Of a DNA stretch of 43,453 nt, positions 2,020-40,327 are shown in pieces. Source of the DNA: an uncultured Erysipelotrichaceae bacterium (GTDB lineage: Bacteria > Bacillota_I > Bacilli_A > RFN20 > CAG-826). The stretch lies in NCBI GenBank assembly GCA_902802905.1, contig CADCNT010000014.1:1-43453 (forward strand), given 5' to 3'. A program made the translations under genes and the position numbers. The notes under the pieces are model-generated. The model had not been told where the DNA came from and made no database searches. It saw only the letters and a list, made by a program, of their open reading frames with translations. Each line of letters starts with the position of its first letter. Within the stretch, counting starts at the first letter, position 1.

Positions 2020-3726
2020 ATGAAAACTATTGATGGTCAAACATTAAAAAAATTATTAATTAGCGCAAGCAACAACTTATTCAATCACTATCCAGAAGTT
2101 GACGCTCTTAACGTCTTCCCTGTCCCTGATGGGGATACTGGTATTAATATGAATCTCACCATGACCAGTGGTGCAAATGAAATCTCCTCAATTAATGAGA
2201 ATGATTGCTTTTTAATTGCCAAAACATTTGCCCGTGGTTTATTAATGGGTGCTAGAGGTAACTCTGGCGTTATCACCTCGCAAATCTTTAGAGGCTTCTC
2301 TTCTATTTTAGAAGGGGTTGAACAAATTGACGCTGTCACATTAGCGGATGCCTTTAGAGCTGGTAGCGATACTGCTTATAAAGCGGTTATGAGGCCTGTT
2401 GAAGGTACTATTCTTACAGTTATTAGAGAATCTAGTGTCGCTTTAAAGCAACAAGTTAAAGAAGGCATGAGCATTGAAAGAGCTTTAGAAATCTTATTAA
2501 AAGAAGCAAACTCTTCATTAAATAGAACCCCTGAATTATTGCCAATTCTTAAAGAAGTTGGTGTTGTTGATAGTGGTGGCACTGGTTTAGTAAGAATCAT
2601 CGAAGGTATGTATCTTGCTAGTATCGGCCAATTTGTCTCTAGAGATGATAAAAACGTTAATGGCAGCTCTGTGGCCGCAATGGCAGCAAGTGCCATGGAT
2701 GAAGAAGAATTTGGTTACTGCACTGAATTCATTATGTCTTTAGGACCAGACTCCGTTAAAAAGATCTTTAATCAAACTAGATTTACTAATTGGTTAAATA
2801 GCCATGGCAATTCCTTAGTGGTAGTTAAGGATGATGATATTGTCAAAGTTCACGTCCATACATTAACTCCTGGTGAAGTTTTAAATTACGCCCAACAATA
2901 TGGTGAATTCTTAAAACTGAAAATTGAAAATATGACAGAACAACATCACGCTCTTGCTGATGGTGCGAAAGTTGAACCACATGTTGATCTTGTTAAAGAA
3001 GAGACTCCTGATAAAGCAGAAGAAGATGATATCAATAAAGATTTACCATCCGACACCATCAAGAACGCTATTATTGCAGTTAGTTCAGGTGAAGGTATTT
3101 CTGCTTATTTCAAAGAATTAGGTGTCACTTATATTGTTAGTGGTGGACAAACTATGAATCCTAGCAGTGAAGATTTCTTAGCCGCTATTAGAAAGATTAA
3201 CGCTGAAAACATATTCATCTTACCAAATAACTCCAATATCGTTATGGCCGCATCTCAAGCAGCAGATATTGCTTCTGATGAAGGCAAAAACGTCTTTGTA
3301 ATTCCAAGCAAAACCGTTCCTCAAGGTATCGTGGCCGCCATGTCTATTGATGCGGAAAGCGATGATGCTGAAGAGAATATGCGTAACATGCGTTATTCAT
3401 TAAAGAATGTGAAGTCTGGAGAAGTTACATTCTCTATTAGAGACTGCGAATTAAATGGCATCCAAATCCATAAAGATGATTTCATTGGTATCTTTGAAAA
3501 AGAAATCGTAGTTGGTACCCAAGATAAATTTGAATGTCTCTTCTCGCTAGTAGAAAAGATGCTTGATGATGAAAGTGCAATTCTCACTGTTTTCTTAGGC
3601 GAAGACGTGAAGCGTGAAGACTTCGTAAGTACTAAGAAATTAATTGAGGAAAGATACCCAGATTTGAACATTGATATTAAAGAAGGCAAACAAAATGTTT
3701 ATTCCTTCTTAGTAAGTGTTGAATAG
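2020..3726 (+). CDS. fakA: Fatty acid kinase catalytic subunit FakA (DhaL/DAK2 family)
   Basis: A 568-residue cytoplasmic kinase. The N-terminal DhaL (DAK2) ATP-binding domain carries the signature PVPDGDTGINM at 34-44, whose aspartates bind Mg-ATP. The long C-terminal part (from about 340) is the FakA extension that contacts the lipid carrier. FakA phosphorylates a fatty acid held by a FakB (DegV) protein, giving acyl-phosphate, which PlsX and PlsY feed into phospholipid synthesis. No fakB is in the window, but plsX is 2 kb downstream. In many Bacillota fakA follows asp23; here it does not. The gene has its own promoter and ends in a terminator whose stem begins with its own stop codon. Start chosen by the conserved N-terminus; no clear Shine-Dalgarno sequence. 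Confidence 0.92.
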   Translation: MKTIDGQTLKKLLISASNNLFNHYPEVDALNVFPVPDGDTGINMNLTMTSGANEISSINENDCFLIAKTFARGLLMGARGNSGVITSQIFRGFSSILEGVEQIDAVTLADAFRAGSDTAYKAVMRPVEGTILTVIRESSVALKQQVKEGMSIERALEILLKEANSSLNRTPELLPILKEVGVVDSGGTGLVRIIEGMYLASIGQFVSRDDKNVNGSSVAAMAASAMDEEEFGYCTEFIMSLGPDSVKKIFNQTRFTNWLNSHGNSLVVVKDDDIVKVHVHTLTPGEVLNYAQQYGEFLKLKIENMTEQHHALADGAKVEPHVDLVKEETPDKAEEDDINKDLPSDTIKNAIIAVSSGEGISAYFKELGVTYIVSGGQTMNPSSEDFLAAIRKINAENIFILPNNSNIVMAASQAADIASDEGKNVFVIPSKTVPQGIVAAMSIDAESDDAEENMRNMRYSLKNVKSGEVTFSIRDCELNGIQIHKDDFIGIFEKEIVVGTQDKFECLFSLVEKMLDDESAILTVFLGEDVKREDFVSTKKLIEERYPDLNIDIKEGKQNVYSFLVSVE

Positions 3727-5754: not shown

Positions 5755-5812
5755 TAATTATTATTGTTTAGTGTAAAATTTTATTTTAGTTGATAGAATA
5801 GAGGAAATTATG

Positions 5813-6778
5813 ATGAGAATTGGTGTTGATTTAACTGGTGGCGATAATGGGAGCAAACCTATTGTTCCTGCCATTTTAGAATTCTTAAGCAAAAATAGTG
5901 ATGTTCAAGTCACTGCTTTTGGCAATAAAGAAGAACTAAAAGAATTAGAGGGTAAATGTGAAATTGTTCACGCTCCTGATGTGATTCCTATGGAAGCAGG
6001 ACCTCTTGAAGCAATGAGAATGAAAAACTCATCTATATACAAGATGGCTCAATACGCTAAAGAAGGAAAACTAGATGCTATGGTTTCTGCTGGCTCTACT
6101 GGTGGATTCTTATCTTTATCAACTTTAATTCTTAAAACTATTCCTGGAGTACATCGCGCTGCCTTTGTTGCTCCTTTCCCAACCAAAATCAAAGGTAAGA
6201 AAGTGGTAATTCTTGATATTGGCGCTAGCAATGAAAACTCTCCAGAAGAATTAGCGCAATTTGCAGTTATGGGCTCTTTATATTCGAAATATATTCTTGG
6301 AGTTAAAGAACCAAAAGTATATCTCTTAAGTAACGGAACTGAAGAAGGTAAGGGCTCTCCTAATGGGAAATTGGCTTATATACTTCTAAAAGACAAACCA
6401 GGTTTTATGGGTAATATCGAAGCACGTAATGCTTTAAGCGGAGAGGCTGATGTAGTGGTTACTGATGGTTTCACCGGTAATGTTTTCCTTAAGAGTAGCG
6501 AAGGTATGGCCAAGATGATGTCAGGTATGATGAAAGCTGCTTTTAAACGTAACTTATGGGCTAAAATCGGCTATTTACATGTTAGAAAAGGCATTAAAGA
6601 AATGACCGAAACCATGGATTACAAGTCCACTGGTGGAGCAATGCTACTGGGAATTAATGGTGTGGTTGTTAAAGCACATGGTAATTCTGATACATATGCC
6701 TTTAGCTGCGCTTTAAACGTTGCTAAGAAATTAGTGGAAGAAAAACTAATGGATAAAATCAAGGAAGGAATTGAATAA
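5813..6778 (+). CDS. plsX: Phosphate acyltransferase PlsX
   Basis: PlsX interconverts acyl-ACP and acyl-phosphate, supplying PlsY with the acyl donor for lysophosphatidate synthesis; it acts at the inner face of the membrane. The start MRIGVDLTGGDNGS matches the family's M-R-I-x-V-D-x-x-G-G-D-N opening, and SAGSTGGFL and VVTDGFTGNVFLK are typical later motifs. Two adjacent ATGs exist (5810 and 5813). I chose the second because it is 7 bases from the GAGGA site (5801-5805) and fits the family N-terminus. The fabD, fabG and acpP genes that often follow plsX are absent. The stop overlaps the rnc start by one base (TAATG). Confidence 0.95.
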   Translation: MRIGVDLTGGDNGSKPIVPAILEFLSKNSDVQVTAFGNKEELKELEGKCEIVHAPDVIPMEAGPLEAMRMKNSSIYKMAQYAKEGKLDAMVSAGSTGGFLSLSTLILKTIPGVHRAAFVAPFPTKIKGKKVVILDIGASNENSPEELAQFAVMGSLYSKYILGVKEPKVYLLSNGTEEGKGSPNGKLAYILLKDKPGFMGNIEARNALSGEADVVVTDGFTGNVFLKSSEGMAKMMSGMMKAAFKRNLWAKIGYLHVRKGIKEMTETMDYKSTGGAMLLGINGVVVKAHGNSDTYAFSCALNVAKKLVEEKLMDKIKEGIE

Positions 6779-7461
6779 TGAGAGAGATTAATGAATTATT
6801 TAATGCCTTCGCTATCGAACCTCATAATCTCGAATTATATGAGCTTGCTTTAACACATCCTTCTTGTAATTCAGATATGAATACCAAACACCAAGATTAT
6901 GAAAGGCTTGAATTTGTTGGCGATTCAGTGATTGGCTTTGTCTCTGCTGATTTAATTTTTAAATTACATCCAGAAATGGACCAAGGCTTAATGTCTAAAT
7001 TAAGATCATTTTTAGTTTGTTCTAAATCATTAGCGAACTATAACCGTAAATATGAGATCAATGAATTCATCCGTATTGGTCATTCTATTTCTAAAGAACA
7101 ACTTTCTAAAAGTGACAAAATTTTAGAAGATGTTTTTGAAGCACTTATGGGTGCAATTTATTTAGACCAAGGTATTGAAGTAGCGTATAGAGTGGTCAAA
7201 GATATTCTTTATGACGATATTAAAAATATCGATATAGACGATATCGTTGATGCTAAAACTAGATTGCAAGAAGAAATCCAATCTGAATATCGTGAAGCAG
7301 TCCGTTATGAATTAATCGATGAATGGGGACCACCTCATGATCGCACATTTGTTTCGCAAGTCGTATTTAATGGAATTGTTTTAGGCAAAGGTAGTGGCAA
7401 ATCTAAAAAAGCAGCTGAGGAAGCAGCCGCTAAAGATGCCTTAAGTAAAAGGAGTGTTTAA
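6778..7461 (+). CDS. rnc: Ribonuclease III
   Basis: This 227-residue endonuclease cuts double-stranded RNA, including rRNA precursors. The RNase III signature ERLEFVGDS is at 42-50, followed by the second catalytic helix LEDVFEALMGAIY. A double-stranded RNA-binding domain fills about 155-227. AAGGAAGG upstream, inside plsX, serves as ribosome site. It overlaps plsX and ftsY by one base each, so the three are translationally coupled. The smc gene that sits between rnc and ftsY in many relatives is missing. Confidence 0.97.
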   Translation: MREINELFNAFAIEPHNLELYELALTHPSCNSDMNTKHQDYERLEFVGDSVIGFVSADLIFKLHPEMDQGLMSKLRSFLVCSKSLANYNRKYEINEFIRIGHSISKEQLSKSDKILEDVFEALMGAIYLDQGIEVAYRVVKDILYDDIKNIDIDDIVDAKTRLQEEIQSEYREAVRYELIDEWGPPHDRTFVSQVVFNGIVLGKGSGKSKKAAEEAAAKDALSKRSV

Positions 7462-8432
7462 TGGGTTTAATTTCTTTTTTAAAAGAAAAGTTTTCTAAAA
7501 AGAAAAATGAGAATGTAGATTCTTATACTGAAGCGATGGCAAAATCGCGTCAGAATTTTTCTAATAGATTAAATGCTTTATCTAAAAAATATAAGAAGGT
7601 AAATCAAGAATACTTTGAAGATTTAGAAGAAATCTTAATCGAAAGTGATGTCGGTGTTAATCTCACGCTTAAAATCATTGATGAGATGCTTCAAATTAGT
7701 AAAGAAAAGAAGATTACAGATTCTGAAGAACTTAATGAATTACTTATTGATCATTTATTCTCTGGATACATGGCTAAAGGCGATAATTTAACCGAAGTTA
7801 GATTTCAAGAAAATGGTCCAACTGTTTTATTAGTCGTCGGTGTTAATGGAGTAGGCAAAACTACCACAATTGCAAAATTAGCATATCGATACTTACAACA
7901 AGGGAAATCTGTCTTATTAGTCGCTGCTGATACATTTAGAGCAGGTGCGAGTGAGCAACTTCAAATTTGGGCAGATAGATTAAAAATTGAAGTGGTAACT
8001 GGTCCATATAATTCTGATCCTAGTTCTGTAGCTTATGACGGACTTAGCAAAGCTAAAAAAGAAAATATTGATTTAGTTATAGTAGATGTTTCAGGTAGAC
8101 TACATAACAAACAATATTTAATGGATGAATTATCTAAATTAAATCGTGTTATAGGAAAATGCATTCCTGGAGCACCACATGAGACATTCTTAATTATTGA
8201 TGCAACAACAGGTCAAAATGGTGTAGTTCAAGCTAAGGCTTTTGCGGAAATTTGCCCATTAACTGGTGTTGTAATTACCAAAATGGATGGAACTTCTAAA
8301 GGCGGAATCATTCTTGCTATTAGAGATGAATTAGGTGTTCCTGTGAGATTTATTGGTTTAGGCGAAAAGATGACAGATTTAAAAGAATTTGATCTTGAAA
8401 GCTATATTTATGGACTTTGTGTAGGAGAATAA
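7461..8432 (+). CDS. ftsY: Signal recognition particle receptor FtsY
   Basis: This 323-residue SRP GTPase docks Ffh-ribosome complexes at the membrane. It has a short, lysine-rich N-terminus instead of a long acidic A domain, then the N helical bundle and the G domain: GVNGVGKTT (127-135), DTFRAGA (157-163) and TKMD (273-276). The G3 motif, usually DTAGR or DTSGR, reads DVSGR at 209-213, an unusual Thr-to-Val change. The AGGAG site lies inside the end of rnc. It is co-transcribed with ylxM and ffh, so receptor and targeting GTPase are made together. Confidence 0.96.
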   Translation: MGLISFLKEKFSKKKNENVDSYTEAMAKSRQNFSNRLNALSKKYKKVNQEYFEDLEEILIESDVGVNLTLKIIDEMLQISKEKKITDSEELNELLIDHLFSGYMAKGDNLTEVRFQENGPTVLLVVGVNGVGKTTTIAKLAYRYLQQGKSVLLVAADTFRAGASEQLQIWADRLKIEVVTGPYNSDPSSVAYDGLSKAKKENIDLVIVDVSGRLHNKQYLMDELSKLNRVIGKCIPGAPHETFLIIDATTGQNGVVQAKAFAEICPLTGVVITKMDGTSKGGIILAIRDELGVPVRFIGLGEKMTDLKEFDLESYIYGLCVGE

Positions 8433-32436: not shown

Positions 32437-34068
32437 ATGTTTGAAGATTTGACTTTATATCAAGCGTACAAGATGGCAGCAGATTCGGTTAAAGATGAAA
32501 CCGCAATCTATTATTTTCGTTCGGAAATCTCCTTTAAAAAACTTTTAGAAAGAATTGATGAGATGGCCTCCATCTTACAAAATCAATTCTTAATCAAAAA
32601 AGGAGACAATATTTTAGTGTCTCTTCCAAACATCCCTCAAACCATTGTTCTTTTCTATGCAATTAATAAGATTGGCGCAGTAGTGAATATGGTGCACCCA
32701 AATTCACCTTGTGAAGTAATGCAAAAATATTATGATGATGCGGATAGTAAAATTGCTTTCTTATTTGACCAAAAAGTTTATAAAGAGTTAGTAGCGTATC
32801 GCAAATTTAAAGGTCACATTGTTATTTGTCAAGCCGGTACCTTCCTAGGAATTAATGCGAAGGCGGTTTATAAAATTAGAAACTCTTGGCCAACCAAGAT
32901 GCTGAAAAAAGAAAAGAAATTCCTTTTCTATGATGATTTAAAAAAACTTACCCCTAACGAGGCTAAGGAAGTGCCGATTGGCAAAGAAGAAACTAGTGTC
33001 CTTCTTCACTCCGCTAGCACAACTGGTGAAGCAAAAACTATATGTTTAAGCGCTAAGAGTTTTAACTTTACTGCTTCTAGAACTCCAGAGATTATGTGCA
33101 TGAATTCATTTGATTTCATTGGCAAATCACTTGTATCTGTTCTTCCTAGCTTCCATGGATTTGGCTTATGTATGACCATGCACGCTCCTTTAGTTAATCG
33201 CTTTGGTGTTGTTCTTATTCCTAAGTTCTCTGCTAAAGAAGTAGCAAAGATGATGGATCGAACTAAAAACGTTATTTGTATATGCGGCGTTCCAAATGTA
33301 TTCAAAGCTTTGTTAAACGAAAAGCGCTTTGTAAATAGTAAAAATTTAAAAACTTTACGTAGTTGTTTCTCTGGTGGTGACTCTCTTAGCACAATGATCA
33401 AAGAGAATTTTGATTCTGCGATGATAAGAAAAGGATCTAAATGTAGATTATTTGAAGGATATGGCTTAACCGAAGTTCTTTCTGTTTGTTCGGTTAACAC
33501 TCATCGACATCATAAATATGGCTCAATTGGTTATCCAATCACTGGAGTGGAATTCCGTATTCTTGACGATAACAATAATCCTTTAGGACCAAATCAAGTT
33601 GGTGAAATCTCTATTAAGAGCGAAAACAATATGCTTGGTTATTTTAAAGACGAAGAATCAAGTAAGAAAGTATATGCAGATGGTTTCTTAAAAACCGGTG
33701 ACGTCGGTTATATCGATGAAGATGGCTTCTTATATTTCAAAGCTCGTAAAAAAAGAGTGATTAAGGTCAGCGGTGTTGCCGTTTTCCCTCATGAAATTGA
33801 AGCGGTAATTTCTAATTTAAGCGGTATCGAAGCCGTATGTGTCATTCAAATTCCTGATGAAAAGATGACTAACGCTGTTAAAGCAGTGATCGTGGCAAAG
33901 AATAAAAATAAAGACAGGATTATTGCCGAATGTCAAAAGAGATTAATCTCTTGGGCTGTTCCTAAAGAGATTGAATTTAGAAATTCTCTACCATACACCA
34001 GATATCACAAAGTTAACTATCTGAAAATCCAAGAAGAAGAAAACAAAAAATATCAAAATGCAGAATAA
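32437..34068 (+). CDS. AMP-forming acyl-CoA synthetase / acyl ligase
   Basis: A 543-residue ANL-superfamily enzyme that activates a carboxylic acid as acyl-AMP and transfers it to CoA or a carrier. Motifs: a variant phosphate loop SASTTGEAKTI (usually TSGTTGxPK), FEGYGLTEV, KTGDVGYIDEDGFLYFKARKKRVIKVSG, and the C-terminal catalytic lysine in YTRYHKVNY. A start at the ATG after AGGAGA (32428-32433) is preferred to an upstream TTG. Length and the missing N-terminal targeting region fit a cytoplasmic fatty acyl ligase. It follows the membrane acyltransferase and precedes tRNA-Leu. Substrate chain length cannot be read from sequence. Confidence 0.85.
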   Translation: MFEDLTLYQAYKMAADSVKDETAIYYFRSEISFKKLLERIDEMASILQNQFLIKKGDNILVSLPNIPQTIVLFYAINKIGAVVNMVHPNSPCEVMQKYYDDADSKIAFLFDQKVYKELVAYRKFKGHIVICQAGTFLGINAKAVYKIRNSWPTKMLKKEKKFLFYDDLKKLTPNEAKEVPIGKEETSVLLHSASTTGEAKTICLSAKSFNFTASRTPEIMCMNSFDFIGKSLVSVLPSFHGFGLCMTMHAPLVNRFGVVLIPKFSAKEVAKMMDRTKNVICICGVPNVFKALLNEKRFVNSKNLKTLRSCFSGGDSLSTMIKENFDSAMIRKGSKCRLFEGYGLTEVLSVCSVNTHRHHKYGSIGYPITGVEFRILDDNNNPLGPNQVGEISIKSENNMLGYFKDEESSKKVYADGFLKTGDVGYIDEDGFLYFKARKKRVIKVSGVAVFPHEIEAVISNLSGIEAVCVIQIPDEKMTNAVKAVIVAKNKNKDRIIAECQKRLISWAVPKEIEFRNSLPYTRYHKVNYLKIQEEENKKYQNAE

Positions 34069-34186: not shown

Positions 34187-34210
34187 AGACATTCAATTGA
34201 ATGTCTTTTT
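34187..34210 (+). terminator. Terminator after tRNA-Leu(CAG)
   Basis: AGACATTC and GAATGTCT form a perfect 8-bp stem around AATT, followed by TTTTT. The -35 box of the next promoter (34197-34202) lies inside its loop and stem. Confidence 0.88.
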
Positions 34211-34251: not shown

Positions 34252-34581
34252 ATGAAAATAGAATTAACATTAGTTTTAAAAAGCACAGAACGTGCCTATG
34301 AAACATTACAACAATTAAAAGAAGAAGGATTTAACGCTACCGTGATGTCTACCGAATCACTTAGACACGCTGTTGATTATTATCCTGGCGAGCATCATTT
34401 TATTAATCTTAGACAAATTGAAAACCGTGAAATGTTAGAAAGTGTTCTTTGCGTTTTTGTGGTTGATGAAGAAAAGTTAGAGCATTTAAAAGAAGTGATT
34501 AGAAATTACACCTCTAATTTCAAGGACATCAAGGGCTTTATGTATTCTCGAAGCATTGATGATTACGAAGGTTCGATTTAA
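34252..34581 (+). CDS. Small PII-like (ferredoxin-fold) protein, possible nucleotide sensor
   Basis: This 109-residue protein has a predicted beta-alpha-beta-beta-alpha-beta order: IELTLVL, STERAYETLQQLKEEG, FNATVMST, a long loop (about 40-64), ESVLCVFVVD, EEKLEHLKEVIRNYTS, GFMYSRSID. Topology and size match PII-like signal proteins such as the c-di-AMP receptor DarA/PstA, but the DarA glycine-rich ligand motif (TGGFLxxGNTT) is absent, so I do not assign a ligand. The next gene, 5 bases on, is a cation/proton antiporter, a common partner class for PII-like regulators. AGAAGG lies 8 bases before the start. Confidence 0.55.
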   Translation: MKIELTLVLKSTERAYETLQQLKEEGFNATVMSTESLRHAVDYYPGEHHFINLRQIENREMLESVLCVFVVDEEKLEHLKEVIRNYTSNFKDIKGFMYSRSIDDYEGSI

Positions 34582-34586
34582 ATAGT

Positions 34587-35879
34587 ATGGAATTCTATAT
34601 ATTTGCATATATCGCTCTTCTTTTGCTTGTGGCGTTACTCTCCACTCGCTTGATGAAGGTTATTAAGCTCCCTAATGTTACCGGCTATATTATCGTTGGT
34701 ATTTTAATGGGTCCATTTGTTTTTGGATTATTATTCAATAGCTTCACCTTTGAAGGAATTAAAGATAGCCCAATCTATTTATGTGTTGATCGCATTAAAT
34801 GGGTATCAACAGTGGCTCTAGGATTTATTGCCTTTTCTATTGGAACTTCTTTTAGAGCCCAAACTTTAAAAGTGGTTGGTAAAAAAGTAATAATCATTAC
34901 TTGCCTTGAAGCTTTACTTGCTTCTGTTTTTGTCATCGCGATTTTAGTGGGTGCGCACTTTATCTTCCCAGAACAAGTTACTTGGCCGCTCGTATTAACT
35001 CTAGGGGCGATTGCTAGTGCGACTGCTCCAGCCGCTACACTTATGGTTATTAAGCAATATAATGCTAGAGGACCATTAGTGAACACATTGCTTCCAGTTG
35101 TCGCTTTAGATGATGCAGCGGCGTTAATCTTATTTGCAATTCTTTTCCAAATCGCGACAACTTTAGCAATTGGTGGAGAATTCTCTATTTATAAAATGCT
35201 CTTTAAACCAATCATTGAAATCTTAATTTCACTTGGTATTGGTGCGGTCTTAGGCTTCTTGATTAGCTTTATGAATCGTTTCTTCAAGTCAAGAAATAAC
35301 CGACTAATCTGGTGCATATTCTCTGTTTTTGCTGCAATTGGTTGCTATTATCTATTTAAATATCCATTCATGGGTGGATTTGAACTAAGTTCGCTCCTTA
35401 TCTGTATGATGGCAGGAGTCATCTATACGAACATGTGCAAAGATAGTGACCGTACCTTAGATGTCATGGATAGATTCACCTCACCAATTTATATGATGTT
35501 CTTTGTGATTTCCGGAGCATCTTTAGATCTTTCTATCTTCTTTAACGGTAAAGGATTGCTATTGGTGGGAGTGGCTTTCGCTTATATCATTTTTAGAGTG
35601 ATTGGCAAGTATTTAGGTGCTTACGCAGGTTGCTCGATTAGTAAGTGTGAACCACAAGTTAAAAAATATTTAGGCCTTGCTCTTATTCCGCAAGCAGGTG
35701 TTGCTATTGGTTTAGCCACTAACGCAAATGCTTTATTCTCCTCTAATCCGGCAACTGCAGAAATAGGCGGACTAATTATCGCTATTATATTAACTTCAAC
35801 ATTGGTGTATGAACTTGTTGGACCATTATTCTCTAAACTTGCTCTTAGTAAAGCAGGTGAAATTCCTGATACAATATAA
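34587..35879 (+). CDS. Cation/proton antiporter, CPA2 (KefB/NapA-like) family
   Basis: This 430-residue membrane protein has about 12-13 transmembrane segments and a Na_H_Exchanger fold. The first helices have LPNVTGYIIVGILMGP, followed by ATAPAA at 145-150 in the crossover region. A double aspartate (D175-D176) in VALDDAAALI is the ion-binding pair of electrogenic CPA2 exchangers. There is no C-terminal RCK/TrkA domain, so any nucleotide control must come from a separate subunit such as the PII-like protein encoded just before it. There is no ribosome site and a 5-base gap to the upstream gene. Ion (Na or K) is not determined. Confidence 0.85.
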   Translation: MEFYIFAYIALLLLVALLSTRLMKVIKLPNVTGYIIVGILMGPFVFGLLFNSFTFEGIKDSPIYLCVDRIKWVSTVALGFIAFSIGTSFRAQTLKVVGKKVIIITCLEALLASVFVIAILVGAHFIFPEQVTWPLVLTLGAIASATAPAATLMVIKQYNARGPLVNTLLPVVALDDAAALILFAILFQIATTLAIGGEFSIYKMLFKPIIEILISLGIGAVLGFLISFMNRFFKSRNNRLIWCIFSVFAAIGCYYLFKYPFMGGFELSSLLICMMAGVIYTNMCKDSDRTLDVMDRFTSPIYMMFFVISGASLDLSIFFNGKGLLLVGVAFAYIIFRVIGKYLGAYAGCSISKCEPQVKKYLGLALIPQAGVAIGLATNANALFSSNPATAEIGGLIIAIILTSTLVYELVGPLFSKLALSKAGEIPDTI

Positions 35880-35894
35880 GAAAGGAATTTTTAT

Positions 35895-37301
35895 ATGGGA
35901 TACACAAAAGAAGATATCCACCAAGTAGTGGTGAAACAAAAAGAATATTTTGCCCGTGGAGAAACTTTAAGTGTGAAATTTAGAAAAGCACAATTAAAGA
36001 AACTCAAACAAGCAATTATCAATAATCAAGAAAAACTCGTTAATGCGCTTCATGAAGATTTAGGCCGTTGTTCCGTAGAAGCATATTTATGTGATATTGG
36101 CGACACTATCATGGAGATTAATGAGTACTATCATGGGCTTAGAAAATGGAGTAAACCAGAAACCCATTTTTCGGGACTAGCTGCTTTTCCAAGCATTTTC
36201 ACTAAAGTATATAAGATGCCTTATGGTGTATCTTTAATTATTTCCCCATTTAATTTTCCAATTCTTTTATCTTTTGGCGTTCTTGCTGCCGCCATTGCTG
36301 GAGGTAATACTGCAATTATTAAAGCTAGTAGTAAATCAGCAGCCTGTACCAAAGCAATGAAAGAAATCATTGAGGAAACTTTCCCAAGCGAATATATCAC
36401 TGTTATTGATGGCGGACATGATGTTGCTGATTATTGTTTAGAAGAACCAGTCGATAAAATTTTCTATACCGGTTCCCCTAATGTCGGCAAACATGTCATG
36501 GAAATGGCGTCTAAAAACTTAGTGCCTGTCGCTTTAGAATTAGGCGGAGAAAATGGTAACTGGTGTATCGTTAGAAAAGACGCAAACATCAAAGATGCGG
36601 CAAGAAAAATTGCTTTCTTTAAGTTATGTAACGCTGGTCAAGTATGCATCAATATTAATCAAGTTGCAGTCGCCAAAGAAATCGCTGATGAATTTATTGA
36701 AGAACTTAAACAAGCATTCGCTAAACAAATTGGCGGGAACGCTTGTGAAAATGAAGAATATCCTAAACTTATTACTTCTAGAGCGTATGATGGCATTGCT
36801 AATGAAGCGGAACAATATCGTGATCGTATTGTTTTTGGCGGAGTAGGTAATAAAGAAAAACAAAAATACAATCCTACTATTATTTATCCTGTTAATGTTG
36901 ATGAACCAATAGTAAACCACGAAATCTTTGGACCATTACTTCCAATAGTGCCTTTTGAAGATGATAAGGTTGATGAAATCTTAAAAGTAGTCTCATCTAG
37001 ACATCATGGTCTAGCTTTATATATCTTCACCAAAAATAAGAAGTGGGCTAAAAAAGTTATGCAAACCCAACAATATGGTGGTGGATGCATTAATGAAGTA
37101 TGTTTACATCTTATGGTTAAAGGTGTTCCATTTAACGGAACAGGCCATTCTGGAATGGGAGCCTATCACGGAGTGTGGGGCTTTAGAGAATTTACTCATC
37201 CTTCTACAGTTTTGTTTGGTCATACCCATATGAACTTACCTCTTAGAGAACACCCTTATAATAAAAAGAAGCAGGATCTGCTGGGTAAATTCCTTAAATA
37301 A
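35895..37301 (+). CDS. Aldehyde dehydrogenase, class 3 (YwdH/ALDH3-like)
   Basis: A 468-residue NAD(P)-dependent enzyme oxidising aldehydes to carboxylic acids. Catalytic cysteine is C251 in NAGQVCI and the general base is E215 in LELGGE; SPFNFP (117-122) and YTGSPNVG (191-198) bind the coenzyme. The short N-terminus and LRKWSKPE at 82-89 match the ALDH3 class, which includes fatty-aldehyde dehydrogenases. ELGGENGNW replaces the usual ELGGKSP. AAAGGA precedes the start. It is followed after 2 bases by a lysoplasmalogenase-family gene, whose product would release fatty aldehydes. Confidence 0.88.
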   Translation: MGYTKEDIHQVVVKQKEYFARGETLSVKFRKAQLKKLKQAIINNQEKLVNALHEDLGRCSVEAYLCDIGDTIMEINEYYHGLRKWSKPETHFSGLAAFPSIFTKVYKMPYGVSLIISPFNFPILLSFGVLAAAIAGGNTAIIKASSKSAACTKAMKEIIEETFPSEYITVIDGGHDVADYCLEEPVDKIFYTGSPNVGKHVMEMASKNLVPVALELGGENGNWCIVRKDANIKDAARKIAFFKLCNAGQVCININQVAVAKEIADEFIEELKQAFAKQIGGNACENEEYPKLITSRAYDGIANEAEQYRDRIVFGGVGNKEKQKYNPTIIYPVNVDEPIVNHEIFGPLLPIVPFEDDKVDEILKVVSSRHHGLALYIFTKNKKWAKKVMQTQQYGGGCINEVCLHLMVKGVPFNGTGHSGMGAYHGVWGFREFTHPSTVLFGHTHMNLPLREHPYNKKKQDLLGKFLK

Positions 37302-37303
37302 TT

Positions 37304-37999
37304 ATGTTAGTTAGTATTCTTTTAATGTCCTTTGGATTTGTTTTGATGATTCTTTTTATCATCGGCAAACTCATCAATTATTCTTTAAAAGTTACCATCT
37401 TAAAAGCTTTAGCCTCATCCTTATTTGTTGCTCTAGTGATTTATTTATTTTGCCTAAAAGGTTATCCAACTTTAGGCATTTATTTTATGATCGCCTCATT
37501 TTTAGGAATGGTGGGCGATATCTTATTAGGACTTAAAAGATACTTCACGAAATTTAAAGGAGTCTTTAACTATGGGGGGTTCCTTTGTTTTGCCTCTGGA
37601 CATATTGTCTATATCGTTGGTATCTTTGCTTGCTTCTATAGAAGTGGACACTATCTAGTTACCTTCTTACCGTTTATTACTGCCTTATTATTTAGTGGAG
37701 CGGTTATCTTCTTTAGAAAATATCTAAATCTTGATTTTGGCAATAAGAACATTCCTACTTTTATTTATATCACTTTAGTAAGTTCCTTATTCTTCTCTAA
37801 CTTTGCTTTACTTTGGTCGTATAACTTTAATCACTTAACGCTCACCTTATTGACTGTTGGTAGCTTCTGTTTCTTAGTGTCTGATCTCATGCTTTGCAAA
37901 TCCTATTTTGGTAAGTATTCTAAAGCGGAATCCGCAATTTACACAGTTTTTTACTATATCGCTCAATTCATGATTGTCTTCTCTATCTTCTTTTTGTAA
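37304..37999 (+). CDS. YhhN/TMEM86 (lysoplasmalogenase) family membrane protein
   Basis: This 231-residue protein has about eight transmembrane helices. Family marks are KALASSLFVALV, the acidic MVGDILLGLKRYF motif, and FASGHIVYIVG, with a later DLMLCKSYF. Characterised members (human TMEM86B, some bacterial YhhN proteins) cleave the vinyl-ether bond of lysoplasmalogens to an aldehyde plus glycerophospho-headgroup. It starts 2 bases after the aldehyde dehydrogenase without a ribosome site, implying coupled translation. The activity is inferred from family and context. Confidence 0.75.
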   Translation: MLVSILLMSFGFVLMILFIIGKLINYSLKVTILKALASSLFVALVIYLFCLKGYPTLGIYFMIASFLGMVGDILLGLKRYFTKFKGVFNYGGFLCFASGHIVYIVGIFACFYRSGHYLVTFLPFITALLFSGAVIFFRKYLNLDFGNKNIPTFIYITLVSSLFFSNFALLWSYNFNHLTLTLLTVGSFCFLVSDLMLCKSYFGKYSKAESAIYTVFYYIAQFMIVFSIFFL

Positions 38000-38130: not shown

Positions 38131-38145
38131 TTTAGTAGGTTAAAG

Positions 38146-38169
38146 GTCGAAATATATTTCGACTTTTTT
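38146..38169 (+). terminator. Terminator after tRNA-Leu(CAA)
   Basis: GTCGAAA and TTTCGAC form a 7-bp stem around TATA, followed by six T's. Confidence 0.88.
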
Positions 38170-38236: not shown

Positions 38237-40327
38237 ATGAAAAAGTATTCATTGTTTCTTATCATTCCTTCATTATTAATTTCTTCTTGTTCTGAAGTTA
38301 AACAAAAGGATGAAACTCCTCTCATTTCCTTATACGATGAAAACAGCAAATTATATCTTGGAAGTGTTGAGAATAAAGATAACATCTATTCTTTAAGAAC
38401 TTATCATCATAAAGACTATGACGATGTTCCGTTTGTGGATTTTAACGAATACCATTACGGGATTAAATCTTATCTTGAAAGAAATAGAAAATTCTATCAA
38501 GGAAATAACGAACACACTTTCATTTATTCTCGTGTGGAAAATAACGGCAAAATAGTGTTCGATACGCTTGAAAACACAGTCACTTTTAATAATGCGTCTG
38601 CAATTCTTCTTGATTCGATTGGCACTAATAACGGAATTGATGGAGATATTACTAATAACAACATTAAAATCTATACTAGTTCGGAAAAAACCAAAGTTCT
38701 TGAAGAAGGCAAGGATGTGGTTATTGATTTAGATGATTACAACATGGATATAGTCTCTCAAGACCGTCATTTATATGTTCCAATTAACGTCATCAATACA
38801 TTATTACTTGCTCCAACTACCGCAGGGATATGCTTTAACGGAGTTGATTATTTTACTGATTATACGATGAGGAATAGATATATTTCTGTCTTTGCTAGAA
38901 GTGGTAACTACAATTCTTCCTGGATTTTTACTCCTACTGAAGTTCCAACCGCTTTTAAAAGAGTCGAAAATGTTGAAAGTGATGAAAAGTATCGTTTTGA
39001 AGGAATTTACTCTAATAGCACTCTAGAAAAACCAGAAGTTATTGTTTTCTCTTTGTTTAAAGACCATAAAGGAACAATGAATGGCAATATCAAAAATAAT
39101 ATCCACTTTGCTTTTGAATGGTCAGAAGATAATGATGTCATCAATCTTAAAGGCGCACAAACGATGATGGAAAGCCGTGATTTAGATGACGCCACCGGAG
39201 AAATTTTTTACACAAAGATCAATAAAAGGGCGACTAATTACGCTACAGAACATAGAAGTGAAGCGGTTGCCAAAATGAATTACGATGAACTCCGCTTATC
39301 TTTTGATTATTTATATGGATTAAAAGAAAAGCTAGATGTCAATAAACTCATTGAAGAAAATCCAGAACTTAAAGAACGTTTGTTATCAACAAATATCATG
39401 GAGTATGAAGATGCATTTGATAAATTGGTCAATTACTACATCGATGATATTCATTCTTCTATCAATGGAGGAGAATCTATTTATTCTTCTTCGCCAATCC
39501 CTTCTTTCCTCACTATTAAAAACGGAGAATATCAAGGCAATAGAAATAAAGCTTATTACAGTGAAGTTGGTCGATTGGGCACAATGAAAAACAATTCCCA
39601 CTTTAATTCAGCTTATGAAATAAGCGGCAAAACTGCCTATCTTAAATTCCATTTATTTATTCACACTATATCCTCATCTTTTCCAATGGCACCAATTAAT
39701 AGCAGTGTCTATAAAACAGAAACTCATGAACAAGCTCAACAAAAAGTCTTGTCTGCTTTAAATTATTCCCCTTATTATGCATTTTGTGTTGCATTTAACG
39801 ATATTTTAAAGCATACCGAAATCGAGAATATTGTTTTTGATTTAACTGGTAATATTGGTGGAGAGATTCGTTGTTTCCCATATTTAGCAGCATTTATGAG
39901 CAAGGACCCTAATATTGTTTATCGCAATACTTTCGATAACACATTAGTGGATTTGCATTATAAAGTCGACCTTAACGGCGATAATGTTTTTGGAGGAGAA
40001 GGCGATTCCTTTGAAGGAAAATATAAATTCTATATTCTTAACGGTGCTAATTTCTCTGCTGGAAACGAATTTGCAGCTTTTGCCAAAGATAGTGGTTGCG
40101 CGAAATTAATCGGTGAGAAAAGCGCCGGAGGAAGCTGCGCCATTGCTAATCGTGTTGATTCTTCAGGATTAACTTATAAATTATCTTCGACATTTCATCT
40201 TCAATTAAAACAAGGTGATAAATATATCAGTAATGATGACGGAGTCGATATTGATTATCAAATTCCTTTTGAAAACTGGTATGAATTAGATCAATTGGAT
40301 GCATTTTTAAACACCTTATCAAATTAA
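38237..40327 (+). CDS. S41-family (tail-specific protease-like) lipoprotein
   Basis: This 696-residue exported protein has a lipobox LLISSC with acylated cysteine C18. A large, unrecognised N-terminal region (about 20-380) precedes a C-terminal S41 fold: IENIVFDLTGNIGGE, then NGANFSAGNEFAAFAKD, with S607 as likely nucleophile, then LIGEKSAGGS and a DDGVDIDYQIP end. The usual catalytic lysine, expected about 25 residues after the serine (GKG motif), is replaced by glycine. Thus it is either a Tricorn-like S41 variant using other residues, or inactive. No PDZ domain was recognised. Own promoter; the GGDEF gene follows after 6 bases. Confidence 0.7.
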   Translation: MKKYSLFLIIPSLLISSCSEVKQKDETPLISLYDENSKLYLGSVENKDNIYSLRTYHHKDYDDVPFVDFNEYHYGIKSYLERNRKFYQGNNEHTFIYSRVENNGKIVFDTLENTVTFNNASAILLDSIGTNNGIDGDITNNNIKIYTSSEKTKVLEEGKDVVIDLDDYNMDIVSQDRHLYVPINVINTLLLAPTTAGICFNGVDYFTDYTMRNRYISVFARSGNYNSSWIFTPTEVPTAFKRVENVESDEKYRFEGIYSNSTLEKPEVIVFSLFKDHKGTMNGNIKNNIHFAFEWSEDNDVINLKGAQTMMESRDLDDATGEIFYTKINKRATNYATEHRSEAVAKMNYDELRLSFDYLYGLKEKLDVNKLIEENPELKERLLSTNIMEYEDAFDKLVNYYIDDIHSSINGGESIYSSSPIPSFLTIKNGEYQGNRNKAYYSEVGRLGTMKNNSHFNSAYEISGKTAYLKFHLFIHTISSSFPMAPINSSVYKTETHEQAQQKVLSALNYSPYYAFCVAFNDILKHTEIENIVFDLTGNIGGEIRCFPYLAAFMSKDPNIVYRNTFDNTLVDLHYKVDLNGDNVFGGEGDSFEGKYKFYILNGANFSAGNEFAAFAKDSGCAKLIGEKSAGGSCAIANRVDSSGLTYKLSSTFHLQLKQGDKYISNDDGVDIDYQIPFENWYELDQLDAFLNTLSN

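Follow-up and report, generated by a model that had tools for sequence, protein, structure and literature searches.

A conserved aldehyde dehydrogenase–YhhN gene pair in gut Bacilli and its putative role in lysoplasmalogen salvage

In a 43,453-nucleotide contig of an uncultured Erysipelotrichaceae bacterium (the whole stretch analysed, hereafter the window), a gene for an ALDH3-like aldehyde dehydrogenase (ALDH) is followed by a gene of the YhhN/TMEM86 family. The pairing is real and conserved within the family of the source organism, and a well-motivated, putative function can be proposed for it. We consider that the two genes probably form a small salvage or detoxification unit for foreign lysoplasmalogens (probability roughly 0.6); its substrate, direction, lipid source and physiological purpose are those that we infer. 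In this proposal, YhhN would cleave vinyl-ether lysolipids of other organisms into a fatty aldehyde and a glycerophosphodiester, and the adjacent ALDH would turn the reactive aldehyde into a fatty acid. FakA, working with a FakB, would then phosphorylate this acid, and PlsX/PlsY would pass it into phospholipids. The source genome also has a GDPD, which could act on the glycerophosphodiester. A salvage route had been proposed by a sequence-only reading of this DNA; its gene adjacency, its YhhN residues and its FakA/PlsX branch are supported, whereas recycling of the bacterium's own plasmalogens and the ligase step are not.

The gene pair and its two proteins

The source genome comprises 1.54 Mb in 25 contigs, one of which is the window, and is 95.6% complete. 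The features at and around the pair are:

32437..34068, + strand: AMP-dependent acyl ligase (PF00501, 200 bits, plus PF13193)
34187..34206, no strand assigned: terminator-like stem-loop that separates the ligase from the antiporter-ALDH-YhhN run
34252..34581, + strand: 109-aa open reading frame, no family assigned, at the head of the putative transcription unit
34587..35879, + strand: Na+/H+ exchanger-type (cation/H+) antiporter (PF00999)
35895..37301, + strand: ALDH3-like aldehyde dehydrogenase, 468 aa, ATG start (PF00171, structure matches, aligned catalytic residues)
37304..37999, + strand: YhhN/TMEM86-family protein with eight transmembrane helices, 231 aa, ATG start, predicted lysoplasmalogenase (PF07947, residues, model)
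38142..38167, + strand: terminator-like stem-loop 3' of YhhN

The reading-frame coordinates place ALDH and YhhN on one strand with a 2 bp gap, exactly the gene order that had been reported at 35895-37999. Between the two stems, which are consensus matches only (15 found against 5.1 expected), lies a putative unit of the 109-aa frame, the antiporter, ALDH and YhhN (34252-37999). The antiporter sits 15 bp 5' of ALDH and is probably co-transcribed with it in the source genome; a sister genome lacks the antiporter at the equivalent site. Downstream of YhhN, at 38237-40327, is a lipoprotein-like S41 peptidase with weak similarity to CPAF.

The first protein of the pair matched the Pfam profile Aldedh (PF00171) with 275 bits. 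Among solved structures the class-3/ALDH3 group ranked first with near full-length matches (6k0z, 315 bits; MdlD 5ucd, 266; ALDH3A1, about 238), and the fatty aldehyde dehydrogenase 4qgk scored 232 bits. The catalytic residues C251, E215, E343 and N120 (protein numbering) were invariant across 13 aligned sequences. As judged by sequence comparison, the protein is thus a member of the class-3 (ALDH3) group, sharing with ALDH3A2/FALDH, MdlD and the bacterial 6k0z a match over nearly the whole chain and the catalytic Cys, Glu and Asn. It differs from 6k0z in that its subfamily carries GGE-x-GNW where 6k0z has GGKSP. The closest named NCBIfam model was benzaldehyde dehydrogenase MdlD, at 352 bits and below the cut-off of 550, and the subfamily is distinct: its members exceed 600 bits on their own profile and other ALDHs stay under 420. 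An AlphaFold2 model of the protein (pLDDT 66) was set aside.

The second protein scored 63 bits on PF07947, whose cut-off is 25.6, and a profile search of the source genome found it to be the only YhhN there. Its AlphaFold2 model contains eight helices (mean pLDDT 90.9); a Foldseek search of this model against the PDB gave no match at E <= 0.001, and searching PDB sequences with the YhhN profile turned up no solved relative. Eight residues have been alanine-substituted in human TMEM86A and B, with activity affected for seven of them (PMC11994398). Set by motif and spacing against TMEM86A positions 43, 81, 82, 104, 182, 189, 190 and 213 (K, G, D, H, G, S, D and Y), these correspond to K34, G71-D72, H100, G186, S193-D194 and Y217/Y218 of the window YhhN. 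All are invariant among 14 relatives except G186, which is nearly so. The acidic residues of TMEM86B, on which the lysoplasmalogenase assignment had been said to turn, are therefore kept along with the other required polar residues.

The PF07947 domain, the eight predicted transmembrane helices and the eight TMEM86A/B residues are common to the window protein and to TMEM86B, Legionella Lpg1991 and M. tuberculosis Rv1401, and we predict that it is a lysoplasmalogenase. To our knowledge, YhhN proteins have been assayed only from mammals, Legionella and Mycobacterium. Those that have been characterised liberate a fatty aldehyde (PMC9052158). What sets the window YhhN apart from TMEM86B, Lpg1991 and Rv1401 is its conserved pairing with an ALDH gene and its occurrence in an organism that is apparently auxotrophic for fatty acids.

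Conservation of the pair within the family

We surveyed 146 genomes of the source organism's family, of which 39 carry a window-type YhhN and 29 the ALDH subfamily. In 21 of the 29 ALDH genomes, YhhN lies directly beside ALDH on the same strand with gaps of 0-36 bp, so that the adjacency proposed as a check on the salvage idea proved to be conserved in relatives. These 21 genomes span several genera, and the genes flanking the pair differ among genera. Variants of the arrangement include one with YhhN first (G142), one with a short-chain dehydrogenase between the two genes (L090), an ALDH fragment beside an intact YhhN (G124) and, in G082, a second pair (L226) that has decayed, with ALDH and YhhN each broken. 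Distances among the ALDH proteins parallel those among the YhhN proteins (Mantel r = 0.82, permutation p = 1e-4), with YhhN evolving much faster than ALDH (median identity 43% vs 76%) and diverging among pairs to a pairwise identity as low as 26%.

YhhN was present in 26 of 30 genomes with ALDH vs 13 of 116 without (Fisher p = 3e-15), the 30 including one genome (G067) in which a contig end truncates ALDH. Because the genomes are related and kinship was left uncorrected, this p value overstates the association; the changing flanking contexts are independent of it. YhhN occurs without ALDH in 13 of the 39 YhhN genomes of the family, and ALDH without YhhN in four genomes. The adjacency of ALDH and YhhN exceeds chance.

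Close relatives of the window ALDH that bear source labels come mostly from rumen, reticulum and gut metagenomes (Bacilli, Bacillales, Erysipelotrichaceae). At three loci where YhhN lies apart from ALDH, a 4'-phosphopantetheinyl transferase-like gene adjoins ALDH (L065:6460-7095, L216:2920-3543 and L217:813-1445), and serpin genes occur near ALDH in two ruminant-gut genomes (L065:3359-4918 and L081:5740-7101).

Fatty acid supply and the purpose of the pair

Two further features of the window concern the handling of fatty acids:

2020..3726, + strand: FakA-type fatty acid kinase subunit (DAK2, FakA-like middle and C-terminal domains), a candidate downstream step
5810..6778, + strand: PlsX (PF02504)

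The FabF/B-type ketoacyl-synthase domain PF00109 was found nowhere in the 95.6% complete source genome, whereas 14 of 14 control genomes were positive. In Firmicutes, fabD, fabG and acpP commonly stand between plsX and rnc; in the window (5810-8432), plsX is followed directly by rnc (from 6778) and then ftsY, with no fabD-fabG-acpP between. The smc gene is also missing from its usual place in this segment. RF39, an uncultured order of Bacilli, is described as having lost fatty acid synthesis completely and is suggested to draw on exogenous fatty acids (PMC6784871). On the evidence of one family (PF00109) and one locus (plsX-rnc), the source organism is an apparent fatty-acid auxotroph, and an aldehyde released by YhhN would therefore have an obvious use. 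Given the missing PF00109, the plsX-rnc gap, the presence of FakA and PlsX and the RF39 precedent, conversion of aldehyde to acid that feeds FakAB would be sensible. As in known FakAB-PlsX incorporation of exogenous fatty acids, FakA and PlsX are both encoded, here in the window; the differences are that this route is apparently the main supply, since FASII looks lost, and that its proposed feed is an aldehyde derived from vinyl-ether lipids.

The sequence-only reading had offered two outlets for the acid, through the acyl ligase at 32437-34068 or through FakA and PlsX. Domain matches place all three proteins in the window. The FakA/PlsX branch gains support from a genome without PF00109 ketoacyl-synthase, and the ligase branch loses it: among 20 relatives' loci, the ligase accompanies the pair only in the sister genome G110, which holds the nearest relative of the window ALDH. 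Shared with that genome alone and separated from the pair by a terminator-like stem, the ligase was rejected as part of the unit, and it is dispensable to the salvage idea.

A possible origin of the lyso-form lipid is suggested by six proteins of 848-904 aa in which a class-3 lipase domain is fused to a C-terminal YhhN domain, in genomes that also carry the ALDH subfamily:

L237:2371-5037, lipase-YhhN fusion
L238:543-3233, lipase-YhhN fusion
L239:762-3308, lipase-YhhN fusion
L240:2408-5122, lipase-YhhN fusion
L241:524-3139, lipase-YhhN fusion
L242:651-3230, lipase-YhhN fusion

The N-termini of these fusions resemble export signals. One of the six YhhN matches falls below the Pfam cut-off. The main catalytic YhhN residues are retained in L237 and L239; the other four lack one or more, and their YhhN domains may for that reason be non-catalytic. 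Two lipases are encoded in the source genome, with N-termini that suggest export; their lipase domains share about 31% identity with the two fusion lipase halves compared. We infer that a lipase removing the sn-2 chain would yield the lyso-form that YhhN enzymes require. A further apparent fusion of 882 aa (L228, G525:C1) was dropped, since it appears to be an artefact, a long frame that runs over another gene. In the literature searched, we found no publication naming YhhN, lipase and their fusion together.

We tentatively suggest, as a possibility that we rate below even odds, that rumen Bacilli auxotrophic for fatty acids draw the acyl chains of their membranes from the plasmalogens of other microbes by way of lipase, YhhN and ALDH. 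If so, plasmalogen chains would be a shared resource in the rumen.

The same chemistry could serve protection from membrane-damaging lysoplasmalogen and toxic aldehyde, with feeding incidental. The YhhN of M. tuberculosis guards cells against lysolipids although that organism is plasmalogen-free (PMC9052158), and ALDH would clear a reactive product. We nevertheless regard protection as the principal purpose as rather unlikely, since a cell that apparently makes no fatty acids of its own is likely to use the acid. Both purposes may hold at once and, being identical in chemistry, salvage and detoxification are inseparable by sequence.

Work on M. tuberculosis has raised the question of why plasmalogen-free bacteria retain YhhN (PMC9052158). 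The YhhN-ALDH pair in apparent auxotrophs suggests a concrete and testable answer, namely that foreign vinyl-ether lipids may be a source of fatty acids, and the pair may serve as a genomic marker by which plasmalogen breakdown could be traced in gut communities. Both protein families were already known; the novelty, to judge from the literature searched, lies in the pairing of ALDH with YhhN and in its setting. In that literature, only two papers mention both YhhN and aldehyde dehydrogenase, one a review on mammals and the other a survey of E. coli promoters.

Other aldehydes, shared descent and the source of the lipid

Outside the family, the ALDH subfamily occurs without an adjacent YhhN, and the Bacteroidales genomes carrying it that we checked had no convincing YhhN. 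An Fe-alcohol dehydrogenase (Fe-ADH) lies near ALDH in 17 of the 80 best loci of a GTDB scan, in most cases immediately adjacent, with records from Clostridia, Bacteroidales and Solobacterium. At two loci (L121:2632-5277 and L136:3765-6416) the two proteins share a single reading frame with Fe-ADH N-terminal, and a third (L126:1-2067) has the same fusion cut by a contig end. L121 and L136 resemble AdhE in uniting the ALDH and Fe-ADH superfamilies in one chain; unlike AdhE, they place Fe-ADH ahead of ALDH rather than behind it, and their ALDH domain is ALDH3-like. The window has no such fusion. Conserved partners of this ALDH subfamily make or consume aldehyde, and YhhN fits the pattern. Elsewhere in the class, the ALDH profile matched nothing in the 30 best YhhN loci with 1.5 kb flanks, where the YhhN neighbours that could be identified were mixed housekeeping-type genes.

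These neighbourhoods and fusions in other groups lend some weight to the alternative that ALDH serves a general alcohol/aldehyde route, that YhhN does not cleave lysoplasmalogens and that the pair handles another aldehyde, as does the divergence of the paired YhhN proteins (identity down to 26%) within a family of which only mammalian, Legionella and Mycobacterium members are known to have been assayed. We judge this alternative unlikely, because the required YhhN residues are all conserved and what YhhN enzymes are known to release belongs to the class of compounds on which ALDH3-type fatty aldehyde dehydrogenases act. That the genes are neighbours by descent alone, with no functional link, is very improbable: close relatives do share local gene order, as the window and L040 do, but the several unrelated flanking contexts, the one case of reversed order, the joint decay of the second copy and the association across genera all speak against it.

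Least probable of all is that the pair recycles the bacterium's own plasmalogens, as had originally been proposed. We used PF09989, which we take to be a domain of PlsA, as the marker for anaerobic plasmalogen synthesis. The domain was absent from the source genome, which was the check set for a plasmalogen synthesis gene, from each of the genus members sampled and from the whole set of 29 family genomes with ALDH, and own-plasmalogen recycling is unlikely for this reason. It does occur in 17 of the 146 family genomes, which are of other genera and of which none is ALDH-positive (Fisher p = 0.015 per genome, 0.098 per genus). Foreign lysoplasmalogens are thus the likelier substrate, and a plausible one, because plasmalogens are abundant in rumen bacterial lipids (PMC3587585) and M. 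tuberculosis keeps YhhN while having no plasmalogens (PMC9052158).
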